Made by a program: the position numbers and the translations under genes. A stretch of 64,000 nucleotides of DNA from Gordonia paraffinivorans NBRC 108238 (lineage in GTDB: Bacteria; Actinomycetota; Actinomycetes; Mycobacteriales; Mycobacteriaceae): the NCBI RefSeq assembly GCF_000344155.1, contig NZ_BAOQ01000028.1:1-64000 (forward strand), read 5' to 3'. The stretch's first letter is position 1. Every line of letters begins with the position of its first letter. This document shows, one piece after another, positions 52,944-64,000 of the stretch. The notes under the pieces were generated by a model. The model searched no databases. It saw nothing but the letters and a program-made list of their open reading frames with translations, and had not been told where the DNA came from.

Positions 52944-53896
52944 GAACCCGGGATCACGTCGCGTTTCAGCGATCTCGCGAGCGGCGCGATCTCGTCGAGG
53001 TAGATCGACGCGAGGATTCCCGACTCGTCGGCCATGTTGCGAACCCGATCGCCCTCGGCCCGATCGCGTTCGGCGTCGATGGCGTGCTCGAGTTCGTCGA
53101 TCGCGCTGACCCGGTCGAGCCACGCCTGCTTCTCCTGACGCTGCTGGATGCGCGCGACGATCTGTTCGTAACTCGCAAAGGCCTCCAGACGTTCGACGAG
53201 ACCGTCCAGCCGGGTCGAGAGCAGCCCCGCCTTCTCCGCGTAGGTCGCCATCACCTCGTCGTCGGTGCCGAGTGGACCGTCCGGCGGGTCGCCGAGGATC
53301 GCGAGCTGGTCGCGGATCCGGGTGGCGGCCCGGGCGATCGCGGTCACCTCGCCGGCCAGGTCGACGCGCACGGAATGCAGGTCGAAGAACTCCAGCCCCC
53401 AGGCCGGGTTCCGGCTGACGCGGTCGGCGACGAGCGCTGTGGTCCACGCGATCCGGCCGACCGGGTCCCGCACCATGTTCTCGAGTTCGGCGCGTTCCTC
53501 CCGGCCCGGCCGGTGGCGACGGGTGGACTGCGAGATCTGCTGGTCGTCGAGCGGACGGCCCGCCCAGATGTCGAGGGCGAGCACCCCGAAGTCGCCGACC
53601 CCGTCGTCGTCGGGACGTCGTGAGCCCTCGAGACGCTGCTGGATGTCCTGGCAGGCGGTCCAGCGGCGTGCGCGCGCGAGGCGCAGCCGGTCGGCGAGAT
53701 CACCCGCGGCGTCGGCGGCGCCGACCAGACGTGCCGGGCGTTCGTCCGCGGTGACGGCGGCACCCGAGCGGCGGCGGCCGAGGTCCCTCTTCATGCCGCC
53801 GAACATCGCGGAGAAGGCTCCGATGGCCGCCGACGCGAGGAGGACGAGGGCCACCGCGAGCACCACCACGAAGACGGCCACCGCGACGAACACCAT
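52940..53896 (-). CDS. Membrane-anchored coiled-coil protein of unknown function
   Basis: Protein of 318 aa with one N-terminal membrane helix (residues 2-28, rich in Val, Ala and Leu) and a long, charged, mostly helical cytosolic part. Coiled-coil-like stretches lie near residues 195-215 and 225-290. No enzyme motif was recognised. It resembles hypothetical actinobacterial proteins. ATG 53896 puts the membrane helix at the very start. The stop codons of this gene and the GNAT gene overlap. Confidence 0.7.
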   Translation of the reverse strand: MVFVAVAVFVVVLAVALVLLASAAIGAFSAMFGGMKRDLGRRRSGAAVTADERPARLVGAADAAGDLADRLRLARARRWTACQDIQQRLEGSRRPDDDGVGDFGVLALDIWAGRPLDDQQISQSTRRHRPGREERAELENMVRDPVGRIAWTTALVADRVSRNPAWGLEFFDLHSVRVDLAGEVTAIARAATRIRDQLAILGDPPDGPLGTDDEVMATYAEKAGLLSTRLDGLVERLEAFASYEQIVARIQQRQEKQAWLDRVSAIDELEHAIDAERDRAEGDRVRNMADESGILASIYLDEIAPLARSLKRDVIPGS

Positions 53897-54021
53897 GAGT
53901 CCAGTAGAGCACGACGAGCCCACCGTCGGAGCAGTTCTTTAGCACCGATAACGAGGCGTCGCGGGCCTGTCGTACCCCGGGCCTAACGTGCCTTGTGTCC
54001 ATCCCGATCGGAGGTCATCGC

Positions 54022-55011
54022 ATGCCCGTCACCGTCACCGAGAGATCCCTCGATTTCGCCTTCCCAGAACTCCACGCCGACGCACGTCTCCGCATCAACG
54101 TCATGCGCACCCTTCGCGTCCCCGACGACGACACCACCTACGGATTGCCGCCGGGAATGGGCACATTCGAGTTGCGCACCGCCGCCGACACCTGGTCACG
54201 CGCGCACGGTTGGACACCGACCGACGTGGTGCTCCCGATGTGGCAGGCCGAGGCCGCGTGGTTCAGCTTCCACTGCCCGTCCGACTACCCGTTCCTGGTG
54301 CGGATCTCGGTCGGCGGGGTGAACGCCGTCACCGGCGAGGACTTCGCCGAGGAGATCGACTTCTTCGGCGAGGACTATTTCGAGGTGCCGGAGCAACCGT
54401 GGCTCGACGGGTTCCGCGTCGACGCCACGACCGTTCGGCAGTTCGTCGCGATGCCGCTCGGCCGCGGCTACACCGCCGCCGAGCAACTGACCGGCGACGA
54501 CGACGGATCGATCCGAATCGAGGTCACGCCGCTGCGCGCCGACGTCTGGGAGGAGCGGGTCGCCGCCCGGCACGACATCGCTACCCCGGGGATGCCGGCC
54601 GGCGCGGTGTTCGACGGCCTCCTGTGCGAGGGTGTGCCCGACCCGGACGGGGCGACCGGCATGGGCCTTGGCGCCGGGGGCACGATCACCCAGTCGATCG
54701 CGACGCCGGTCGAGCCGCGCGGCAACTGGGACACCACCGCGACCAGCCGGTCGACCCTGCGCATCGTCAACAGCGCCGACTGGGAGGCCCTCACCGGCAC
54801 CCGGCCGCACCACGAGCCGCCCACGATTGCCGAGTACGTCGAACACGGCTACCCGTGGTTCGAGTGGTACGACGACTCACTCGCCCGCCAGGGCGACTCG
54901 AAGTTCTCGTCGATCAAGACGGTGAAGGAGATCGGCGCAGAGAAGGGCGAGTCGCCGCTGCCGGACAACACGAGCTTCACCCCGCCGCAGCCGCACGTCG
55001 TCGGATCATGA
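54022..55011 (+). CDS. Conserved hypothetical protein, 329 aa
   Basis: Soluble acidic protein with no signal peptide or membrane segment. Notable segments: FSFHCPSDYPFLVRISVGGVNAVTG, VPEQPWLDGFRVD and PLGRGYTAAEQLTGDD. These suggest a beta-rich fold of the kind seen in uncharacterised actinobacterial proteins. GGAGG lies 7 nt before the ATG at 54022, so the upstream ATG-like starts are not used. No function assigned. It stands alone between convergent neighbours. Confidence 0.7.
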   Translation: MPVTVTERSLDFAFPELHADARLRINVMRTLRVPDDDTTYGLPPGMGTFELRTAADTWSRAHGWTPTDVVLPMWQAEAAWFSFHCPSDYPFLVRISVGGVNAVTGEDFAEEIDFFGEDYFEVPEQPWLDGFRVDATTVRQFVAMPLGRGYTAAEQLTGDDDGSIRIEVTPLRADVWEERVAARHDIATPGMPAGAVFDGLLCEGVPDPDGATGMGLGAGGTITQSIATPVEPRGNWDTTATSRSTLRIVNSADWEALTGTRPHHEPPTIAEYVEHGYPWFEWYDDSLARQGDSKFSSIKTVKEIGAEKGESPLPDNTSFTPPQPHVVGS

Positions 55012-55151: not shown

Positions 55152-56615
55152 TCAGTCCGCGCGCGTACCGAGTCGACGGGCCACCTTGGTGGCGACCAGG
55201 TAGGGGGTGGCACCCAGCGGCCACTGGGAGACGATCCTGCCCTTGCCCGATTTCGCGCGGAAGTAGTTGGAGGTGTCCGCCCAGACCGTCTTCGCCAGCT
55301 GGTCCTGCAGCCACTCGTTGTACATGGCGTAGGCGCGCTCGCGTACCCGGACCCGGGTCAGGGACTTGTCGCGCAGCTTCGCGATCAGGCCGGCGGCGAA
55401 CTTCGCCTGGGACTGGTAGAAGGAGACGAGCGGAACCGAGTTGGTGTTCGGGCCGTACATGATGAAGAAGTTGGGGAAGTTCGGCACCATCATGCCGAGC
55501 AGAGCGTCGGGTTCACCGGCCCACTGCTCGTGTAGATCGGCCCCACCCTCGCCATGCACCTCGAAGTTGCCCAGGTAGTTCGCCGCGTCGAAACCGGTTG
55601 CGAGCACGATGATGTCGAGATCATGCTCGTCGCCGTTCGCGTCGATCGCACCTTGCTTGGTCAGCCCCTTGACACCATGCGGGACGAGCGTCACGTGCGG
55701 ACTCTTCAGCGCCTTGTAGTACGTGTCGCTGAGGACCGTCCGGCGGCCCTCGAACGCGAACTTCGGGGTGGCCATCTCCAACAGCTCCGGATGGGAGCCC
55801 AGCTCGCTCTGCAGGAACGCCAGCGACTGTGCGTACCGCATTCGGTTCGGCCGCCCGTTGGCGCGGGCGTGGCCGGCGAAGAACTGGCGCTTGTCGTAGT
55901 CGAAGTACAGCCGCAGACGGCGGTACCAGTACACCGGGGCGAACCGGTTCAGGCGACGCTCGGTCGCGGTGAACTCCCGGGCGTTCTTCGGCAGGATCCA
56001 GTTCGGCTCGAGCTGGAAGATCTTGACCTCGGAGGCGACCTTCTCCGCCTCGGTCACAATCTGCACCGCAGACGAGCCGGTGCCGACGACACCCACCTTC
56101 TTGCCGGCCATGTCGAGTCCCTCGATCCAGCGCGACGTGTGGCAGATGGCGCCCTCGAAATCGTGGTCGCCGCGAGCGAAGGGCGGGATGAGCGGGATGT
56201 TCAGGAATCCGACGGCGCTGATCACCGCGGTGAACGGCCCGTGGTCCTCACCCGAGCTCGTCTTGATCGTGTACTGGCGCTTCTCGTCCGACCAGGTCAC
56301 GTCCTCGACCGCCTCGTTGAACCGCATGTGCTCGATCAGCCCGTGCTTGGCGGCCACGTAATTGAGGTAGCCGAGCAGCTCCTGCCAGTCGACGTGGGTG
56401 CGGGACCAGTCGTAGCGCTCATACGAGAACGAGTAGATGTGGGACTCCAGGTCCACCTCCGCCCCGGGGTACCGGTTGTAGAACCAGGTGCCACCGAGGC
56501 CGGGGGCCTTCTCGAACATGACGAAGTCGTCGATTCCCTTGCGCTGCAACTCGACGGCCGCGGCGATACCACTGAACCCGGTTCCGATGATCGCCACTCG
56601 TACTGGTGTTGCCAT
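55152..56615 (-). CDS. FAD/NADPH flavin monooxygenase (Baeyer-Villiger/FMO-like)
   Basis: Class B flavoprotein of 487 aa that uses NADPH and O2 to oxidise ketones, amines or sulfides. FAD site IGTGFSGIAAA near residue 10, the family stretch FEKAPGLGGTWFYNRYPGAEVD, and the NADPH site VVGTGSSAVQI near residue 175. The Baeyer-Villiger fingerprint FxGxxxHxxxW(P/D) appears as FEGAICHTSRWI, so the last position is Ile rather than Pro or Asp. Last gene of a catabolic operon on the minus strand. A 123-nt gap with its own strong promoter separates it from the SDR gene. Confidence 0.9.
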   Translation of the reverse strand: MATPVRVAIIGTGFSGIAAAVELQRKGIDDFVMFEKAPGLGGTWFYNRYPGAEVDLESHIYSFSYERYDWSRTHVDWQELLGYLNYVAAKHGLIEHMRFNEAVEDVTWSDEKRQYTIKTSSGEDHGPFTAVISAVGFLNIPLIPPFARGDHDFEGAICHTSRWIEGLDMAGKKVGVVGTGSSAVQIVTEAEKVASEVKIFQLEPNWILPKNAREFTATERRLNRFAPVYWYRRLRLYFDYDKRQFFAGHARANGRPNRMRYAQSLAFLQSELGSHPELLEMATPKFAFEGRRTVLSDTYYKALKSPHVTLVPHGVKGLTKQGAIDANGDEHDLDIIVLATGFDAANYLGNFEVHGEGGADLHEQWAGEPDALLGMMVPNFPNFFIMYGPNTNSVPLVSFYQSQAKFAAGLIAKLRDKSLTRVRVRERAYAMYNEWLQDQLAKTVWADTSNYFRAKSGKGRIVSQWPLGATPYLVATKVARRLGTRAD

Positions 56616-56666
56616 GTGGATGTCTCCCTGCTGATGATCCGACGCCGACCACTCACGGCGGTTGTT

Positions 56667-56707
56667 GACTATTGGCCTAGTCTTTAGACCTTATTTGGAT
56701 GTGTCAA
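56667..56707 (-). promoter_or_regulatory. Consensus promoter and palindromic operator before the monooxygenase gene
   Basis: On the minus strand TTGACA (56702-56707) and AAGACT (56679-56684) are 17 nt apart. The inverted repeat GACTA-N6-TAGTC (56667-56682) overlaps the -10 and start region, and GTCT-AA-AGAC is also present. The stretch is notably AT-rich against the background. It looks like a repressor-controlled promoter. Confidence 0.65.
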
Positions 56708-56738
56708 GGGCCTCTTGTGCCCTACTCGGACACCTTCC

Positions 56739-57470
56739 CTACTTGACCTGCACGCTCCAGCCGCCGTCGACGACGAGGTCCGTGGCAGTGATGAAAGATG
56801 CCTGATCCGACAGCAAGAATGCGATCGCTGCGGCGATTTCCTCGGGGTACCCCAGCCTGCGCATCGGCGTGCGCTCCTCCATGTCGGTCCGGCGCGCCGG
56901 ATCCTCCACGTAGAGATGTTCGATCATGGGCGTGAGGATCGCGCCCGGGCAGACCGTGTTGCACCGGATGTTCTCCGGAGCCAGTTGCAGTGCGAGAGAC
57001 CTGGACAGCGACACGATCGCCGCCTTGCTGACCTGATACGCGTCCAGGGGCGAATCCATCCCCCGCGTGCCGGCGATGCTGGCGACATTGACGATGCTGC
57101 GTCCCTTGCCCTTCCGCAGCGCCGGGACGGCCGCGGAGATGAGCGCACGGGTTGCGTGCAGGTTCACGCCGAGCGTCACATCCCACACCGCCTCGTCGGC
57201 GTCGAGCGCCGACCCGTCCCGGTCGAAGAACGCCACGCCCGCGGCGTTGACGAGGTGGTCCAGGCCGCCGTCGGCGAACGGACTCAGCAGCTCGTCCAGA
57301 TCACCGGAACGCAGATCCAGGGGCACGTACCGCACATCGTCGGGCAGCGAGGCGGGCCGCTCCGGCTTGATGTCGGTCGCCACCACGCGGCAGCCGTCGG
57401 CGGACAGACGCTGCGCGGTGGCCAGTCCGATCCCGCCACCCGCCCCGGTGACCAGCGCGGTGCGGCTCAT
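56739..57470 (-). CDS. Short-chain dehydrogenase/reductase
   Basis: NAD(P)-dependent oxidoreductase of 243 aa. Cofactor motif TGAGGGIG near residues 8-15, NAAG in the fourth strand (VNAAGVAF), catalytic Ser in VNVASIAG and the YQVSK form of Tyr-x3-Lys. Classical SDR length; it oxidises alcohols or reduces carbonyls. It overlaps the hydrolase gene by 4 nt, so both act in one pathway. Substrate unknown. Confidence 0.9.
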   Translation of the reverse strand: MSRTALVTGAGGGIGLATAQRLSADGCRVVATDIKPERPASLPDDVRYVPLDLRSGDLDELLSPFADGGLDHLVNAAGVAFFDRDGSALDADEAVWDVTLGVNLHATRALISAAVPALRKGKGRSIVNVASIAGTRGMDSPLDAYQVSKAAIVSLSRSLALQLAPENIRCNTVCPGAILTPMIEHLYVEDPARRTDMEERTPMRRLGYPEEIAAAIAFLLSDQASFITATDLVVDGGWSVQVK

Positions 57471-58399
57471 CGGGTTGCTCCCGTCGCGAACGCCTCACGC
57501 AGGCGCTTGCCGGCGAACTCCATCGCCTCGGACGCGGTCGGGAAGATCTGGTCGAGCCCGAAGAATCCGTGGATGAGCCCCTCGCTCTCGAACACCTCCA
57601 CGGGCACGTCCGCCTCGCGGAGGGCCTGCGCGTAGAGCTCGCCCTGCGGACGAATCGGGTCGCACTCGGCCAGGATCACGGTTGCCGCCACGAGACCCTC
57701 GAGCTTCGCGTCGAGCACGGAGACCCGCGGATCGGTGGCCCAGTCCGGGCCCGGGAGGTAGTTGTCCTGGTGCCACTGCATCTCGTCGCGCTCGAGCATG
57801 ATGCCCTCGTACTCGTCGTCGAAGCCCTTGCCGAGGTCACAGGTGGTCACCGGGTAGATCAGCAGTTGATGCGCGAGCGGAGCCATCCGGTCACGCGCCT
57901 CGAGCGCGACCGCGGCGGCCAGGTTGCCGCCGGCGCTGTCGCCCGCGACGGCCACTCGCGAGACGTCGACCGGCAGGTTCCCGGGCACACGCGCCCATTC
58001 GAGGGCGTCGATGGCGTCGTTCACCGCGGTCGGGAACCGGTGGTCCGGTCCGCGGCGGTAGTCCACCGACAACACGGCGGATTCCGATGCGGTGGCGAGG
58101 AGCCGGGTCGTGACATCGTGCGAATCGATGCTGCCCAACAGCCACCCGCCACCGTGGTAGTAGACCGTGAGCGGCGGGTCCTCGGCCCCCGAGGGCAGGT
58201 ACAGCCGTCCGCGGATGGTCTCACCGTCACGAGTGGGGATCGCGACGTCGCGGGTCTCGTGGATCGGCGGCTTCTCCAGCGCGGCGAAAGTGTTCTCGAA
58301 GTTCTCCCGCGCGGTCTCCACCGGCAGGAGGTGGGCATTCGGACGACCCGAGGCCTTCGAGTCGTCGATCATCTTCTGGGCGATCGGATTGAGGGGCAT
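57467..58399 (-). CDS. Alpha/beta hydrolase, hormone-sensitive-lipase family
   Basis: Esterase or lactonase-type enzyme of 310 aa. Oxyanion motif YHGGGW (about 80-85), nucleophile GDSAGGN (about 154-160), then ECDPIRPQGELY with the acid and GLIHGFF with the His of the triad. AGGAAGGA precedes the ATG by 5 nt. It may open an ester or lactone made by the monooxygenase encoded downstream in the same operon. Substrate unknown. Confidence 0.9.
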   Translation of the reverse strand: MPLNPIAQKMIDDSKASGRPNAHLLPVETARENFENTFAALEKPPIHETRDVAIPTRDGETIRGRLYLPSGAEDPPLTVYYHGGGWLLGSIDSHDVTTRLLATASESAVLSVDYRRGPDHRFPTAVNDAIDALEWARVPGNLPVDVSRVAVAGDSAGGNLAAAVALEARDRMAPLAHQLLIYPVTTCDLGKGFDDEYEGIMLERDEMQWHQDNYLPGPDWATDPRVSVLDAKLEGLVAATVILAECDPIRPQGELYAQALREADVPVEVFESEGLIHGFFGLDQIFPTASEAMEFAGKRLREAFATGATR

Positions 58400-58432
58400 G
58401 ACAGTCCTTCCTGGTGGGAATTCCGGTGCGGG

Positions 58433-59815
58433 TCAGACGCGCTCGTAGTAGCGCTTCTTCTCCCAGTCGGTCACCGCGCCGGAATCGAAGGCGAGCAGTT
58501 CGTTCTGTGAGGAGACGAGAAGATGTTCGAACTCTTCGTCGCCGAAGGCCGCGCGCAGCATCTTGCACTCGGCGAACCGGTGGAGTGCTGCGTGCATGGA
58601 GGTGGGTACCGTCTCGATCTGATGTGCGTCGTCCCAGGCGTTTCCGGAGAACACCTCGGGGGTCGGCAGGTCGCGCTGGACACCGTCGAGCCCGGCGGCG
58701 ATGGTGGCGGCATAGGCGTAGTACGGATTGACATCCGCCCCCGGGATCCGGTTCTCGACGCGGAACGACGCGCCCTCGCCGACCAGCCGGAACGCGCAGG
58801 ATCGATTGTCGGCACCGAGCGCGATCGCCGATCCGGCGAACTGATCGGGCTGGAACCTCTTGTAGGAGTTGATCGTCGGCGCGAACATCAGGACCACGTC
58901 GGCGGCGTGTTCGATCTGGCCGGCGACGAACGACCCGAACTTCTCCGACATGCCGCCGCCCTCCTTCGCCCAGCACAGCGGGGCGGGCGTGGGATCGGTG
59001 CTCCACATGCTCACGTGCAGATGACACGAGGAGCCGACCTCGTCGATGGCGGGTTTCGCCATGAAGGTGACGGTCAGGTCCGACTGGTTGGCCAACTGCT
59101 TGACCCCGTACTTGAAGAGCACGTGCCGGTCGGCCATCTCCAGTGCGCCGCAGTAGTCCAGCGTGATCTCCTGCTGCCCCAGGCCCCATTCGGGCTTGGA
59201 CGACTCGATCGGGATGCCGAACTCGGGCATCATGTTCCGGATCTGGCGGATGAACCAGTCGTCGCGGGCGGACTGGATCAACTGGTAGTCCGACCGGTAA
59301 TCGGACGTCATCGCCAAATTCTGGTATCCGAGCTCCCAGGCCTTGCGCGGCGGCGTCTGGGACAGGAAGAACTCGAGCTCGGAGGCGAACTGGAAGGCCA
59401 GTCCCTCCTCGGCCGCACGCGCTATCTGCTTCTTGAGGATCGTGCGCGGCGCAACCGACAGCAGCTCGTCGCGGTCGGCCTCGTAGGCGTCACAGATGAC
59501 CATGGCACAGTTCGGTTCCCACGGAACACGGCGGAGGGTCGCCAGGTCGGGGACCAGGCGGATGTCCGCCCACCCGTTGGACGCGTTGGACACCGGCAGG
59601 TCGAGAGGGTTCATCTCGAGGTCGACCGCGAACACGAAGCTGCTCGCGTTGACACCGCCACCGTTCAGGCACAGCGAACGGAAGGCGTTGACGGTCAACC
59701 GCTTTCCGACCGTTCGTCCGTAGGGGTCGGGTGCGGCGCAGATGACCGTGTCGATCGTTCCGTCGGCGACATGTGCGTCGAACTCGTCGAGGGACAGGAT
59801 TCCGGAATGTGTCAC
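58433..59815 (-). CDS. Glutamine-synthetase-like ligase 1 (gamma-glutamylamide synthetase type)
   Basis: Protein of 460 aa with a GS catalytic domain. Metal ligands in ASELEFFL and PEWGLGQQEI, substrate His in SSCHLHVSMW, NSYKRFQPDQF, and VENRIPGADVNPYYAYAA with the catalytic Arg. The ammonia-binding DGSS segment of true GlnA is missing; the place reads SNASNGWADI. Such paralogues (PuuA, GlnA3, GlnA4, IpuC) join glutamate to amines. GTG start overlaps the second GS-like gene by 4 nt (GTGA). Confidence 0.88.
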   Translation of the reverse strand: MTHSGILSLDEFDAHVADGTIDTVICAAPDPYGRTVGKRLTVNAFRSLCLNGGGVNASSFVFAVDLEMNPLDLPVSNASNGWADIRLVPDLATLRRVPWEPNCAMVICDAYEADRDELLSVAPRTILKKQIARAAEEGLAFQFASELEFFLSQTPPRKAWELGYQNLAMTSDYRSDYQLIQSARDDWFIRQIRNMMPEFGIPIESSKPEWGLGQQEITLDYCGALEMADRHVLFKYGVKQLANQSDLTVTFMAKPAIDEVGSSCHLHVSMWSTDPTPAPLCWAKEGGGMSEKFGSFVAGQIEHAADVVLMFAPTINSYKRFQPDQFAGSAIALGADNRSCAFRLVGEGASFRVENRIPGADVNPYYAYAATIAAGLDGVQRDLPTPEVFSGNAWDDAHQIETVPTSMHAALHRFAECKMLRAAFGDEEFEHLLVSSQNELLAFDSGAVTDWEKKRYYERV

Positions 59816-61101
59816 TGGTGCTCCAGGTGTCGTTGAAGTTCCCACGGCGTGATGAACGTGCGCATCCACGCCTCGTATCGCTGGTGCTCGGCTCTGCGGG
59901 TGGACGCGAATGCCTCGACGAACGCCTTGCCGAGAGTCTGTGCGGCATACCCGGAGTTCTCCAGGGCGGTGATCGCATCGCCCAGATTGTCGGGAAGTGC
60001 CTTCGCCCCGACGGGCCCGGCCTCCGGTAGGGGCAGCTGGTCCTGAAGTCCCACCAGTCCGCCCGCGAGCAGGGCCGCGGCGACGACGTAGGGGTTCGCA
60101 TCGGCGCCGGGACGGCGGTGCTCGATCCGCGCCGCCTTCGTGCTCCCCAGAAGGGCTCGACACGTCGCGTTTCGGTCGTCGCTCCCCCAGAATGCCCGGT
60201 CGCCGACGAACATCGCCGGATCGGCCCGCTTGAACGAGTTGACGTACGGGCTGAACAGCACCGTGAAGTCCGTCATCGTCTGCAGCAGACCGGCCAGGTA
60301 TCGCGAGCCCACGTCGGAGAACCTGCCCGGTTCGTCGACCATCACGTTCGCACCGTCTCGGACAAGACTGGAGTGCACGTGCCCGCCGGCCCCGGAGAAG
60401 CCGCCGAACGGCTTCGCCATGAAACTCGCGCGGAGCCCGTGCTCGGCACACAGGTCGCGGAGATACTGGCGCGCGCGGGCGGCGCCGTCGGCCGCCTCCT
60501 TGGCCGGCGCCGGCGCGAGCGCGAACTCGAAGAACCCAGGTCCGAGCTCGGAGTGGAAGGCCTCGACCTCGATACCGACGTGCGTCATGCGGTCGATGTA
60601 CTCCGACGCCAGTTCGTCGGCCTCCACGGATCTGGTCAGGCTGTAGGCGTTGTGGGTTCGGCCGAGCGGGGTCAGTCCGGAGGTGCCGTGGAACTCCGCG
60701 CCCGGGGTCTCCCGGAAGATCCACACCTCGTACTCGTATCCGAGAACGGGCTCGAGATCGAGCGAGCGATACTCGTCGATCAGGCCCAGGAGCACACCGC
60801 GCGCCGAGGGGCCGAACGGCCGGCCGTCCGCGTCCACGAAGTCGGCGATGACCGCATCGGTCCCCTGCCGCCAGGGCAGCTCGACCCGGGTGGCCTCATC
60901 GGCGACGACCACCCCGTCGGGATATCCGTTCTCCGCGTTGCTGAACGGCGTGTCACTGGCGTCGTCCACCAGCGACAGCCCGTACGCGATGGTGCAGAAC
61001 GCCATCCCCGAGTTCGTCTTGTCGGAGCGGACGAGTTTGCCCCGCAGGCCGAGGTCGTAGTCCGGGACCTCGATCTGGGTCATCGGCCTGAGTCTGCTCA
61101 T
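59812..61101 (-). CDS. Glutamine-synthetase-like ligase 2 (gamma-glutamylamide synthetase type)
   Basis: Protein of 429 aa, clearly different from ligase 1. Metal and substrate motifs: LGYEYEVWIF, ELGPGFFEFAL, SGAGGHVHSSL, NSFKRADPAMF and IEHRRPGADANPY. The N-terminal beta-grasp part is present but lacks the DGSS ammonia-site motif. Probably ligates glutamate to an amine. The two genes are side by side and co-translated, so they may form mixed rings or act on two intermediates. GGAGGAAAG lies 2 nt before the ATG. Confidence 0.87.
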   Translation of the reverse strand: MSRLRPMTQIEVPDYDLGLRGKLVRSDKTNSGMAFCTIAYGLSLVDDASDTPFSNAENGYPDGVVVADEATRVELPWRQGTDAVIADFVDADGRPFGPSARGVLLGLIDEYRSLDLEPVLGYEYEVWIFRETPGAEFHGTSGLTPLGRTHNAYSLTRSVEADELASEYIDRMTHVGIEVEAFHSELGPGFFEFALAPAPAKEAADGAARARQYLRDLCAEHGLRASFMAKPFGGFSGAGGHVHSSLVRDGANVMVDEPGRFSDVGSRYLAGLLQTMTDFTVLFSPYVNSFKRADPAMFVGDRAFWGSDDRNATCRALLGSTKAARIEHRRPGADANPYVVAAALLAGGLVGLQDQLPLPEAGPVGAKALPDNLGDAITALENSGYAAQTLGKAFVEAFASTRRAEHQRYEAWMRTFITPWELQRHLEHQ

Positions 61102-62150
61102 GCCTTTCCTCCACGGTTTCCAGGGGTCCGTCCGACGCGGTGATAGACGCTGTCGGGGACCAGCGAGGGGTCTCGGTACACCCACCACGTGCACGCTGTC
61201 GCGGCACCGGGTTGTCCGGTCCAGATCGGCGGATCGATGACGCGCGTGGGGAATCCGATCCGGTCGATCGGCATCACCACGTTGAGCTGGCAGCAGTGGA
61301 CGCAGTAGGAACAGATCCCCACCTCGTTCCACGCCCAGTCGTGCCGACGCGTCGTGGTGGCGAAGCCGTAGGGCGCCGCCGATCGCGGTTCGCCGCCGGT
61401 CACCTCGGCGTCGAGCATCCGTCCGCCGGAACCGCAGGGCGCGAAGCGGAAGCCGATACGGTCGGGTTCCTCGATCATCTCGATGTCTCCCTGGCGATCC
61501 CGCCCGACCAGGTGGGCGTGGAACCCGTCGACGATCGCGACCATCAGCTGGTTCGCCGACACCTGCCACGGTTGGTTCTCCGGGGAGAAGCGCCGCTCGT
61601 GCGCGTCGTACCAGTCGGCCATGAGGAAGTCCCAGAGTTCTCCGAGGATGTCCTCGCCGCAGAGCCGGACCGCGATGTCGATGTGTCCGGCGACCCGATC
61701 CACGGCACGGTCGTGGATGCCGAGCCAGATGGCGTGCACCTCGTCGACGAGTTCGATCGCGCGACTGTCGCCGTCGCGGCATCGTCGGGCGGCGTCGAGG
61801 GCCGCGTCGCGGTACTCCGGCCACTCGGCCTGGATACCGGTCATGGCGACGTCGCCGATGACCGAACGCAACCGGTCCTGCTCACGTTCCAGTTCGGCGG
61901 GATCCACGCCCCGTCCGGTGAGCCACCGGGCGACCTCTGCCGGCCACCGCTCGTAGACGTCGCGGAGTTCGTCGGCCTCCTCGAGCGACACCTCGAGGAG
62001 GTCGGCCGCCGCTCGGTGGTCGCCGGCCTCGATACGCGCCTTGGCCGCCCTGAAGGTCCCCTGCGACAACTCGTCCCACGAACCGATGCGGGCCGGGCGC
62101 CCGAGGAACGTGCTGTGCGCGACGACCGGTGAATCCTGGCCCACGGTCAT
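61098..62150 (-). CDS. Cysteine-rich protein of unknown function in the catabolic operon
   Basis: Protein of 350 aa. The N-terminal half is helical (ELSQGTFRAAKARIEAGDHR, then ELEREQDRLRSVIGDV); the C-terminal part has RFAPCGSGGRMLDAE followed by VGICSYCVHCCQLN, a CxxCxxCC cluster that probably binds metal or an Fe-S cluster, and ends with the aromatic TACTWWVYRDPS. A similarity to amino-thiazoline-carboxylate hydrolase-like proteins was considered but not established. ATGA overlaps with both neighbours mean it is part of the pathway. Confidence 0.7.
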   Translation of the reverse strand: MTVGQDSPVVAHSTFLGRPARIGSWDELSQGTFRAAKARIEAGDHRAAADLLEVSLEEADELRDVYERWPAEVARWLTGRGVDPAELEREQDRLRSVIGDVAMTGIQAEWPEYRDAALDAARRCRDGDSRAIELVDEVHAIWLGIHDRAVDRVAGHIDIAVRLCGEDILGELWDFLMADWYDAHERRFSPENQPWQVSANQLMVAIVDGFHAHLVGRDRQGDIEMIEEPDRIGFRFAPCGSGGRMLDAEVTGGEPRSAAPYGFATTTRRHDWAWNEVGICSYCVHCCQLNVVMPIDRIGFPTRVIDPPIWTGQPGAATACTWWVYRDPSLVPDSVYHRVGRTPGNRGGKA

Positions 62151-62917
62151 GTGAGCTCGAACCCGCCGTCGACCAGCAGTTCCGCACCGGTCGTGTACGA
62201 AGACTGATCGCTGAGCAGGAACGCCGCCGCGTGCGCGATCTCGTCGGGTCTGCCGAACCGCCCAGTGGGCACCCGCCGCTGCAGGCTGTCCGGCAGACGG
62301 GAGGTGTCACCGTGCGCCGCGGCCATCGGCGTGGCGACGAACCCGGGGGCGATGGAGTTCACCCGGATGCCCCGTGAGGCCAGCGCACGGGCCGCGGTCC
62401 GCGTGAGCATCGACAGCCCGGCCTTCGACGCCGCGTACTGCGGCGTCGGGTCTGGATCGGTCAGGGCCACGACGCGATGCGATTCGATCGAGCTGATGTT
62501 GACCACCGCTCCGCGACCGGACCGCTCCATGTGCGGCGTGACGGCGTCGATCAGGTTGTAGGTGCCGACCAGGTTCACATCCAGGGCCCGGCTCCACGAG
62601 TCCTGGCTCACGCCGGCGAAGCCCGTCGTCTCGAGCATGCCCGCGCAGTTGACCACGTAGCTCAGGCCTTCGCCGGCATGTTCGTCGACGATGTCCTGCA
62701 GGCCGCGACGATCGCGGACGTCGACCGCACACGGCACGTGGAGGTGGGCACGTGGGCCACTGACCTGTTCGGGTTCACGCAGGTCGAGTGCCAGCGTCCG
62801 GATTCCGGCGTCGATCAGCACCGCGGTCACGGCCGCGCCGATACCCGACGCCGCGCCGGTGACGACGGCGCCCTTCCCCGAAAAGGTCAGGGCCATGTGT
62901 GCGGTCGACGGGCTCAT
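62147..62917 (-). CDS. Short-chain dehydrogenase/reductase 2
   Basis: Classical SDR of 256 aa. TGAASGIG near residues 17-24, VNCAGML, catalytic Ser in NISSIES and YAASK. The loop after the Ser has an insertion (HRVVALTDPDPTPQ) and may shape the substrate site. ATG 62917 overlaps the stop of the upstream DUF1116 gene by 4 nt. Different from SDR 1 in sequence, so probably a different step. Confidence 0.9.
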   Translation of the reverse strand: MSPSTAHMALTFSGKGAVVTGAASGIGAAVTAVLIDAGIRTLALDLREPEQVSGPRAHLHVPCAVDVRDRRGLQDIVDEHAGEGLSYVVNCAGMLETTGFAGVSQDSWSRALDVNLVGTYNLIDAVTPHMERSGRGAVVNISSIESHRVVALTDPDPTPQYAASKAGLSMLTRTAARALASRGIRVNSIAPGFVATPMAAAHGDTSRLPDSLQRRVPTGRFGRPDEIAHAAAFLLSDQSSYTTGAELLVDGGFELT

Positions 62918-64000
62918 CGCGCTCCGTACCTTTCCTCGAACGCGGCCATGGCATTCTCGAAGCACTCACGCGGCGCGCGGATGACACCGGCACCGATCTG
63001 CCCGCCGTCGCGGCCCGCCAGGCCCACGTCCATCACGGGGTAGATGTCCTTCTCCAGGACCATCCGGGCGTCGACGCCGGTCGGGGTGCCGCGGAAGGAG
63101 AACAGCGGAATCCGGTAGGTGCCGTTCTCACCGTGGGTGATGGAGTACATCTCCCGATTGCGTTCGATCATCACGTCGGGAGATCCTCCCTGATAGTCCT
63201 GCAGCGACAGCGCGCAGGCCTGTGCGAAGCCTCCCAATCCGACGGTCTCTGTGATCGGGCTCTCGCCGCCCATCCAGGTGATCTCGTCCTCGGTGTGACC
63301 GGCGAACAGCTTGCCCTCGTGAACCGGCGGCGGTCCCTCGAACCACTGGTCGCCGAGGCCGGCGAGCTTGATGGCGAAGCCGCGGCAGCTGAACGCCATG
63401 GCGGACACCAGGGTCGAGCCCTCGACGACCATGGCGTCGGCGGACGCCTTCGCCGCGGCCATCGAGAGCCGCAGGAAGAAGTAGTCGTTCTCCGCGAGAT
63501 GCAGCATCGTCTCCTGCACGCCGGGCACGCCTTCACCGACCATGCCCAGGACCGCGGGCAGGATCTCCCGGTTGAAGAGGATCGACGCCGCGGCGTTGCG
63601 GCTGTGGACCTCGTCGCCCATCCGCAGCGCCCGGGCGATGAGCGGCTTCAGCGCGATCCCGCCGCTGCGGCGGATCGCCTCGCCCACAACGGGCGCCAGC
63701 ACGGTGTTGACGTGCAGCAGGCGCTCGTGGACCCCCTCGTCGTAGCAGCCGTAGTTGAGGCGGCGCGGTTCCTTGCCCTCGTAGAAGTTGCAGAACCCGA
63801 CGTTGCCGTGGGCACGGTTCTCGACGACGAACACCGGCATCGAGGCCGTGTAGATGCCGGCCAGAGATCCCACCGCCGCGTAGTCATGGCAGGCGCCGAT
63901 CTCGATGCGTCCACTGGCGAAGCCCTCGATGGCCTCCTCTCGGGACGTCGCGAGGCCTTCGAACAGCGCGCCGCCGATCAGCGCCTCACGCTGGCCTCCC
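62914..64000 (-). CDS. DUF1116/AllG-like protein (5' end outside window)
   Basis: About 360 residues of the C-terminal part; the frame is open to base 64000. Family marks: CHDYAAVGSLAGIYTASMPVF, YGCYDEGVHERLLHV, LKPLIARALRMGDEVHSRN and the C-terminal GAGVIRAPRECFE. DUF1116 proteins (E. coli YlbE/AllG) work with FdrA/AllF and AllH as oxamate carbamoyltransferase, which phosphorolyses a carbamoylated substrate to carbamoyl phosphate. First visible gene of the operon; an FdrA-like partner would be expected just outside the window. Confidence 0.82.
   Translation of the reverse strand, partial: GGQREALIGGALFEGLATSREEAIEGFASGRIEIGACHDYAAVGSLAGIYTASMPVFVVENRAHGNVGFCNFYEGKEPRRLNYGCYDEGVHERLLHVNTVLAPVVGEAIRRSGGIALKPLIARALRMGDEVHSRNAAASILFNREILPAVLGMVGEGVPGVQETMLHLAENDYFFLRLSMAAAKASADAMVVEGSTLVSAMAFSCRGFAIKLAGLGDQWFEGPPPVHEGKLFAGHTEDEITWMGGESPITETVGLGGFAQACALSLQDYQGGSPDVMIERNREMYSITHGENGTYRIPLFSFRGTPTGVDARMVLEKDIYPVMDVGLAGRDGGQIGAGVIRAPRECFENAMAAFEERYGAR

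Follow-up and report, generated by a model that had tools for sequence, protein, structure and literature searches.

Routes for alicyclic ketones that employ a type I Baeyer-Villiger monooxygenase (BVMO) together with an esterase are known. In E. coli, according to a published account, oxamic transcarbamylase is fully functional only with both AllF and AllH, each single deletion having abolished oxamate production and partial gene pairs having restored 7% and 16% of it (PMC11326118). A second report describes the tpdABC operon of Rhodococcus jostii TMP1 with its regulator gene tpdR of 2364 nt (PMC6099782). Here we analysed a stretch of 64,000 bases (the window) from Gordonia paraffinivorans NBRC 108238, corresponding to positions 1-64000 of contig C84 (93,688 bases) in a genome of 4.63 Mb and 111 contigs. 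Its end carries most of a 14-gene module at contig 55.0-70.4 kb, which we tentatively propose, with a little less than even confidence, to encode the catabolism, by way of gamma-glutamylation, of a small vicinal amino alcohol or alpha-amino ketone, with 3-amino-2-butanol or 3-amino-2-butanone as the proposed type substrate. The gene set, its co-conservation, an operator-like motif and active-site residues could be read from the sequences, and the reactions, substrate and order of steps are proposed from them. The features of the module are as follows.

55152..56615, minus strand: type I BVMO by the fingerprints FEGAICHTSRW and GGTWFYNRYPGAEVD, with BVMOs among the best PDB matches
56664..56692, no strand: two overlapping operator-like sites (at 56664 and 56677) 5' of the BVMO gene, ranked fifth and sixth among all sites of the contig (93,688 bases) with a matrix from other genomes
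56739..57470, minus strand: short-chain dehydrogenase (SDR), gene 8; PF13561/PF00106
57467..58399, minus strand: HSL-family alpha/beta hydrolase (HGGG, GDSAG); PF07859, motifs in 10 of 10 orthologs
58433..59815, minus strand, GTG start: GS2, glutamine synthetase-like (GS-like), probable gamma-glutamyl-amine ligase; PF00120 and active-site residues
59812..61101, minus strand: GS1, GS-like, probable gamma-glutamyl-amine ligase; PF00120 and active-site residues
61098..62150, minus strand: Cys/His-motif protein (Cys protein) of 350 amino acids (aa) without known family; no Pfam/NCBIfam match, motif from alignment
62147..62917, minus strand: SDR, gene 3; PF13561/PF00106
62914..64000, minus strand, start at contig 64200 (outside the window): lone AllG/DUF1116 homolog of 428 aa; Pfam PF06545, E 2.9e-73, full frame at L002:2915-4201
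contig 64194-64925: additional SDR, the ninth gene of the run, overlapping the AllG gene by 7 bases
contig 64985, 65006 and 65068: predicted operator sites, regulator/operon region
contig 65145-65879, strand opposite to the gene run: FCD-GntR regulator
contig 65883-66821: glutaminase
contig 66892, 66900 and 67009: predicted operator sites, glutaminase/permease region
contig 67024-68655: APC permease
contig about 68796-69575: SDR4, the fourth SDR
ending at contig 70341: Peptidase_C26, PuuD-like hydrolase (PF07722)
contig 70401-70491: tRNA-Ser(cga), the module edge, where segment content varies between same-genus genomes

All eight minus-strand open reading frames (ORFs) that the original prediction had placed at 55152-64000 are present, the first exceeding the window edge, and the families it had named are confirmed by Pfam and NCBIfam. 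The five 4-base stop/start overlaps that it had described lie at 62914-62917, 62147-62150, 61098-61101, 59812-59815 (GTGA) and 57467-57470, with gaps of 33 bases between GS2 and the HSL hydrolase and of 123 bases between SDR gene 8 and the flavoprotein. Its eight-gene operon was right as a gene set, but the run comprises nine genes, of which the BVMO gene, with operator-like sites of its own upstream, is probably a separate transcript in the same regulon. Extending the contig past 64000 also revealed the kinds of transporter and regulator that it had suggested looking for there, namely the APC permease and the FCD-GntR protein; no carbamate kinase was found within the module.

Conservation of this gene order was followed using the Cys protein as a marker, which matched 5 of 251 genomes of the family, three of them strongly (the window's genome included). 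Fourteen further loci were collected, ten from one contig scan plus locus L009 and three Rhodococcus plasmids, each with a Cys relative of at least 43%; their hosts are Gordonia, mycobacteria, Nocardioides and the Rhodococcus plasmids. The nine-gene order and strand are kept in all 12 complete loci, which excludes chance as the explanation of the gene association. Not all loci are independent: L012 and G117/L008 represent one genome, and L170 shares 95% identity with L172 over 27.7 kb. The permease, the regulator and the C26 hydrolase accompany the run in 12 of 12 complete loci, the glutaminase in nine and a whole SDR4 in eight. A partial locus cut by a contig end, L020, contains the Cys protein, GS1, GS2 and a further GS-like gene (the third), along with an SDR and a BVMO-like piece. 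The limits of the module are indicated by same-genus genome G852, in which matches to the contig's own 53789-55002 and 70388-74653 flank 14.2 kb of other DNA, with no match of at least 80 bases to the window's contig reported in those 14.2 kb at that site. The 14 genes therefore lie together in a variable segment of 15.4 kb that ends at tRNA-Ser; two genomes were compared in this way, and the stretch compared from the other, G850, matched at the flank on the tRNA side only. In G. namibiensis, tRNA-Ser likewise adjoins the module.

A palindromic motif search of 45 promoter stretches from the 12 loci gave a score of 260.6, compared to 20.3 and 21.1 for two shuffles, a difference that overstates the evidence because the sequences are related and a single intergenic region serves both the permease and the glutaminase gene. 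A matrix of 21 sites, excluding the window's genome and a close relative, was run on the whole 93,688-base contig, and its eight best sites all fell in the three module promoter regions listed above, the ninth-ranked (68805) lying at the SDR4 gene start; this test is partly circular, as the sites were chosen via a motif learned on all 12 loci, the window's included. No site above the motif-search threshold was found in L169 and L170 in the 170 bases 5' of the BVMO gene, nor of the glutaminase gene. From these patterns we infer that the BVMO, permease and glutaminase genes form one regulon with the gene run, which the adjacent FCD-GntR protein, as the presumed binder, probably controls through the shared operator. 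The single co-regulated catabolic module foreseen by the original prediction is thus supported as far as sequence analysis reaches.

In glutamine synthetase, conserved residues make up the metal, ATP and glutamate sites, and E327 closes the ammonium site. Inspection of the window and nine loci (GlnA numbering) showed that E129, E131, E212, E220, H269, R321, R339, R344, R355, E357 and R359 are kept in 10 of 10 orthologs of both GS1 and GS2, and that E327 is F or Y in all 10 of each (Y in PuuA). S53 and Y179 are lost in both proteins, whereas D50 persists except for an E in one GS2; S or V replaces N264 (A in PuuA), K352 is variable and Y397 is not retained. GS1 and GS2 are therefore probable gamma-glutamyl-amine ligases that would act on an organic amine, and the gamma-glutamylation that had been proposed for the locus fits these active-site residues as a predicted activity.

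Type I BVMOs carry the fingerprints FxGxxxHxxxW and GGxWxxxxYPGxxxD. Both, as well as an ATGFD motif, are present in 10 of 10 orthologs of the flavoprotein, the residue after the fingerprint W being I in nine and P in one. Among solved structures, cyclohexanone, steroid and phenylacetone monooxygenases rank with its best relatives. The top NCBIfam match is a neopentalenolactone-synthesis BVMO, far under the cut-off (147 versus 1100 bits), and a partial DAO match covers residues 6-44. By its fingerprints, the flavoprotein is a type I BVMO predicted to insert oxygen into a ketone. The HSL hydrolase retains its two motifs throughout, and the CRG and WHPE motifs (Cys, His-Glu) of the C26 hydrolase are intact in the protein of this contig and the nine orthologs read, so that the oxidation and cleavage steps of the original prediction find candidate enzymes in the BVMO, the esterase and the C26 hydrolase. 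On pR1CP1, two adjoining genes are annotated as C26 (L170:11236-12542), the short one probably being a fragment, and extra C26 pieces occur at the equivalent place in JS3073.

A link to pyrazines comes from the plasmids. Among 72,556 plasmid records, AllG homologs of 80-90% identity, Cys protein homologs over at least 80% of the length (60-62% identity) and TpdA homologs of at least 79% were each found in the same three, which represent two diverged plasmid lineages. Homologs of tpdABC-tpdR lie upstream of the module in all three, and an acetate-CoA ligase gene (acs) lies downstream in two. On plasmid pR1CP1 of R. opacus 1CP, genes for an LLM oxygenase, TpdB (annotated as tetramethylpyrazine oxygenase), an amidase, a LuxR protein (2364 bases), a flavin reductase, an SDR and a dimethylformamidase-like protein precede the module, and acs follows it. 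SB3094 has the same gene kinds with insertion sequences interspersed, tpdA lying about 19 kb from the C26 gene and acs after the BVMO gene, and JS3073 resembles 1CP. TpdA-like proteins of Mycobacterium L014 (on the module contig) and M. porcinum (on another contig), with 39-42% identity, were not counted, given no adjacent TpdB or TpdC homolog, and an amidase near the module in L018, 37% like TpdC, was likewise set aside.

For the tpd pathway, Kutanovas reportedly described in 2013 an oxidative cleavage of the ring together with a diacetamide hydrolase and an aminoalcohol dehydrogenase, and hence an amino alcohol or its acetamide is expected as product; the substrate proposed here would be of the product kind expected from alkylpyrazine ring opening. 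In the proposed scheme, the permease would import the amine, and GS1 or GS2 would attach glutamate by its gamma-carboxyl, which would also prevent condensation of amino ketones to pyrazines. The SDRs may then convert the alcohol to the ketone, and the BVMO would place an oxygen atom between the carbonyl and the carbon that bears the nitrogen, so that the HSL esterase could free acetate and leave an N-(1-hydroxyalkyl)glutamine (a carbinolamide). Collapse of the latter would give an aldehyde and glutamine, from which the glutaminase would produce glutamate and ammonia, whereas acetate would be taken up by the acetate-CoA ligase on the plasmids; the C26 hydrolase probably strips glutamate from off-pathway conjugates. 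As we infer it, this scheme would account jointly for the permease, ligases, SDRs, BVMO, esterase, glutaminase and acs.

A number of observations weigh against this scheme. It does not require the C26 hydrolase, although this is present in all 12 complete loci, nor the AllG homolog and the Cys protein, and two GS-like enzymes and four SDRs exceed its strict needs. The glutaminase was not found in the stretch available for three of the 12 loci and SDR4 is absent or fragmented in four, with the proviso that the loci end at their edges and a gene not found may lie outside; partial locus L009 retains just the BVMO, the Cys protein and GS2 of the module, and acs of JS3073 is fragmentary, with a 41% homolog after it. 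No TpdA was found in the window's genome (best LLM match 26%) by a search that gave 100% (the source itself) and 79% on two plasmids, and a search for TpdB, run without a positive control, had no match in 251 family genomes. The pyrazine link is therefore limited to three Rhodococcus plasmids, two of them the 95% identical pair. The cyclic nitrogen compound envisaged by the original prediction fits only indirectly, through the position of the module near alkylpyrazine ring-opening genes on these plasmids, but not through any TpdA match in the window's genome.

These points bear on a second explanation, somewhat doubtful but to be taken seriously, in which the same gamma-glutamylation and Baeyer-Villiger route serves another amine, such as an alicyclic or aryl amino alcohol, and the proximity to tpd reflects unrelated clustering of catabolic genes. 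The enzyme types would permit many substrates, and no TpdA or TpdB homolog was found within the stretches examined of the nine complete non-plasmid loci, nor was TpdA found in the window's genome; however, the plasmids carrying the module are the very three with TpdA of at least 79%, from two diverged lineages, and acs and the glutaminase suit acetate and glutamine as products. It is, by comparison, very improbable that the module is biosynthetic, with a gamma-glutamyl-tagged metabolite made by the ligases and modified by the SDRs and the BVMO. GS-like ligases and BVMOs do occur in biosynthesis, and the top NCBIfam match of the flavoprotein is of this type, but the permease, glutaminase, C26 hydrolase and plasmid acetate-CoA ligase indicate uptake and breakdown, and the plasmid module is linked to degradation genes. 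Morpholine, isopropylamine and cyclohexylamine routes were set aside, as the enzymes known for them differ from those of the module.

The original prediction had the AllG homolog transfer a carbamoyl group to phosphate, as oxamic transcarbamylase does, so that the pathway would end in carbamoyl phosphate. In favour of this are the strong PF06545 match and the retention in the window's AllG of residues conserved across the aligned family rows, e.g. D196, H199 and R201. Nevertheless, AllH (PF11392) was not detected in the window's genome, the E. coli control being positive, and AllF was not detected there by an E. coli FdrA search that was positive in six of eight genomes, the negative ones being just the two that bear the module (G000, the window's genome, and G117). 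The loss of oxamate production in E. coli upon each single deletion, and its restoration to just 7% and 16% by partial pairs (PMC11326118), also argue against an AllG acting in this way, as do the lack of a carbamate kinase in the module and the phylogeny below. AllFGH-type carbamoyl transfer was thus rejected as the best reading and appears exceedingly unlikely. PF06545 occurs in 66 of 246 genomes of the class, in a single copy in the window's genome. Across 396 genomes of the phylum 50 match; G476 carries two relatives of the window's AllG, with 58% and 56%, and the other matches listed do not exceed 43%; 3clq is the sole solved relative among the matches listed. Tree analysis of 54 rows places the lone rows, 14 in number and 13 of them distinct, on one side of a branch with 100/100 support and a long stem. 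Five rows outside this lone clade, L097-L101, have no E. coli AllF match beside them.

GS-like genes accompany lone AllG in all three neighbourhood kinds seen. At L102:6193-17980, the 56% identical lone AllG occurs with a Rieske oxygenase, a GS-like ligase, a C26 hydrolase, a 3-hydroxyisobutyrate-dehydrogenase-like protein, a glycerate kinase and a 2-hydroxyacid dehydrogenase, a cluster that looks like a different amine pathway. L139 (G476:C327:1-20000) contains within 20 kb two lone-AllG genes, three GS-like genes, a PocR/PucR-type regulator and an FmdA-type amidase, and is a second kind of lone-AllG cluster. Given this co-occurrence and the likeness of carbinolamides to ureidoglycolate-type compounds, we speculate, as an unlikely guess, that the lone-AllG proteins constitute a novel kind of enzyme, namely a carbinolamide lyase, which would convert N-(1-hydroxyalkyl)-gamma-glutamylamides to an aldehyde and glutamine, the nitrogen leaving as glutamine. 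If so, the lyase would recur where an oxygenase hydroxylates or cleaves beside gamma-glutamylated nitrogen, acting after the BVMO and the esterase in the module and after the Rieske oxygenase in L102, where it would feed glycerate-type enzymes.

The Cys protein matches no Pfam or NCBIfam family. C239, C283, H285, C286 and C320 are invariant in 24 of 24 aligned rows (13 of alignment A2 and one each from 11 of 17 distant stretches). An AlphaFold2 model has a mean pLDDT of 75.8 and a pTM of 0.75, with residues 241-273, part of the Cys motif region, below 50. Foldseek gave no PDB match with E <0.001, the best being a designed protein (E 0.11); weak rows included several H-NOX domains, and VIA-align rows mostly matched the N-terminal helical part to helical bundles. 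ATC hydrolase (PF14196), a possible relative suggested by sequence patterns, gave an hhalign probability of 2.7% (core alone 4.7% local and 1.2% global) with shallow alignments, which does not support the link. Distant homologs occur in 14 of 396 genomes, the window's own included, and in the neighbourhoods compared (13 of 17 stretches) their neighbours vary among SDRs, zinc alcohol dehydrogenases and Amidohydro_2 proteins and suggest no particular function. In L052-L057, from other genomes of the phylum, the homologs lie inside ORFs of about 500-590 aa, with a second short internal match in L052-L054 and L056 and a weak B12-binding-like N-terminal match in L054 (E 0.0064). A 23% homolog in L010 (G230:C4) lies near dihydrolipoamide-dehydrogenase-like, SDR and AMP-ligase genes, and its length and place match one on a plasmid of R. 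jostii RHA1.

Literature searches found no report joining glutamate tagging with Baeyer-Villiger cleavage, which is weak evidence of novelty as few subscription papers were covered; with the same coverage, none was found on DUF1116 and glutamine synthetase operons, on pyrazine with glutamine synthetase and Baeyer-Villiger enzymes, or on 3-amino-2-butanol in Rhodococcus. If our proposal is right, the module would provide a genetic route for the steps after pyrazine ring opening, and for amino ketones generally, joining two known strategies. The AllG homolog, whose genome has no detectable AllF or AllH and whose clade is tied to glutamate-tagging genes, and the conserved family of Cys/His proteins, for which Pfam has no model, are two testable enzyme candidates.

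Compared with described systems, the module resembles the tpd tetramethylpyrazine pathway of R. jostii TMP1 through the tpdABC-tpdR homologs near it on the three plasmids, the 1CP LuxR gene having the 2364-base length given for tpdR in that report (PMC6099782). The tpd pathway performs ring opening, however, whereas the module would act at a later stage, and TpdA was not found in the window's genome. It shares with the AllFGH oxamic transcarbamylase the AllG subunit family, but its AllG belongs to a separate clade with other neighbours in a genome where AllF and AllH were not found. Clustering of SDR, BVMO and ester hydrolase genes is common to it and the alicyclic ketone routes, to which the module would add gamma-glutamylation. 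The Puu putrescine pathway of E. coli is similar in its APC-type permease (22% identity to PuuP over 453 aa), its C26 gamma-glutamyl hydrolase and a GS-like ligase with an altered ammonium-site glutamate, as in PuuA. No match to an aldehyde dehydrogenase such as PuuC or to a separate PuuB/DAO-type oxidase was found among the module genes scanned; unlike the Puu pathway, the module contains two ligases rather than one and, in place of PuuB and PuuC, the SDRs, BVMO, esterase, glutaminase, lone AllG and Cys protein.

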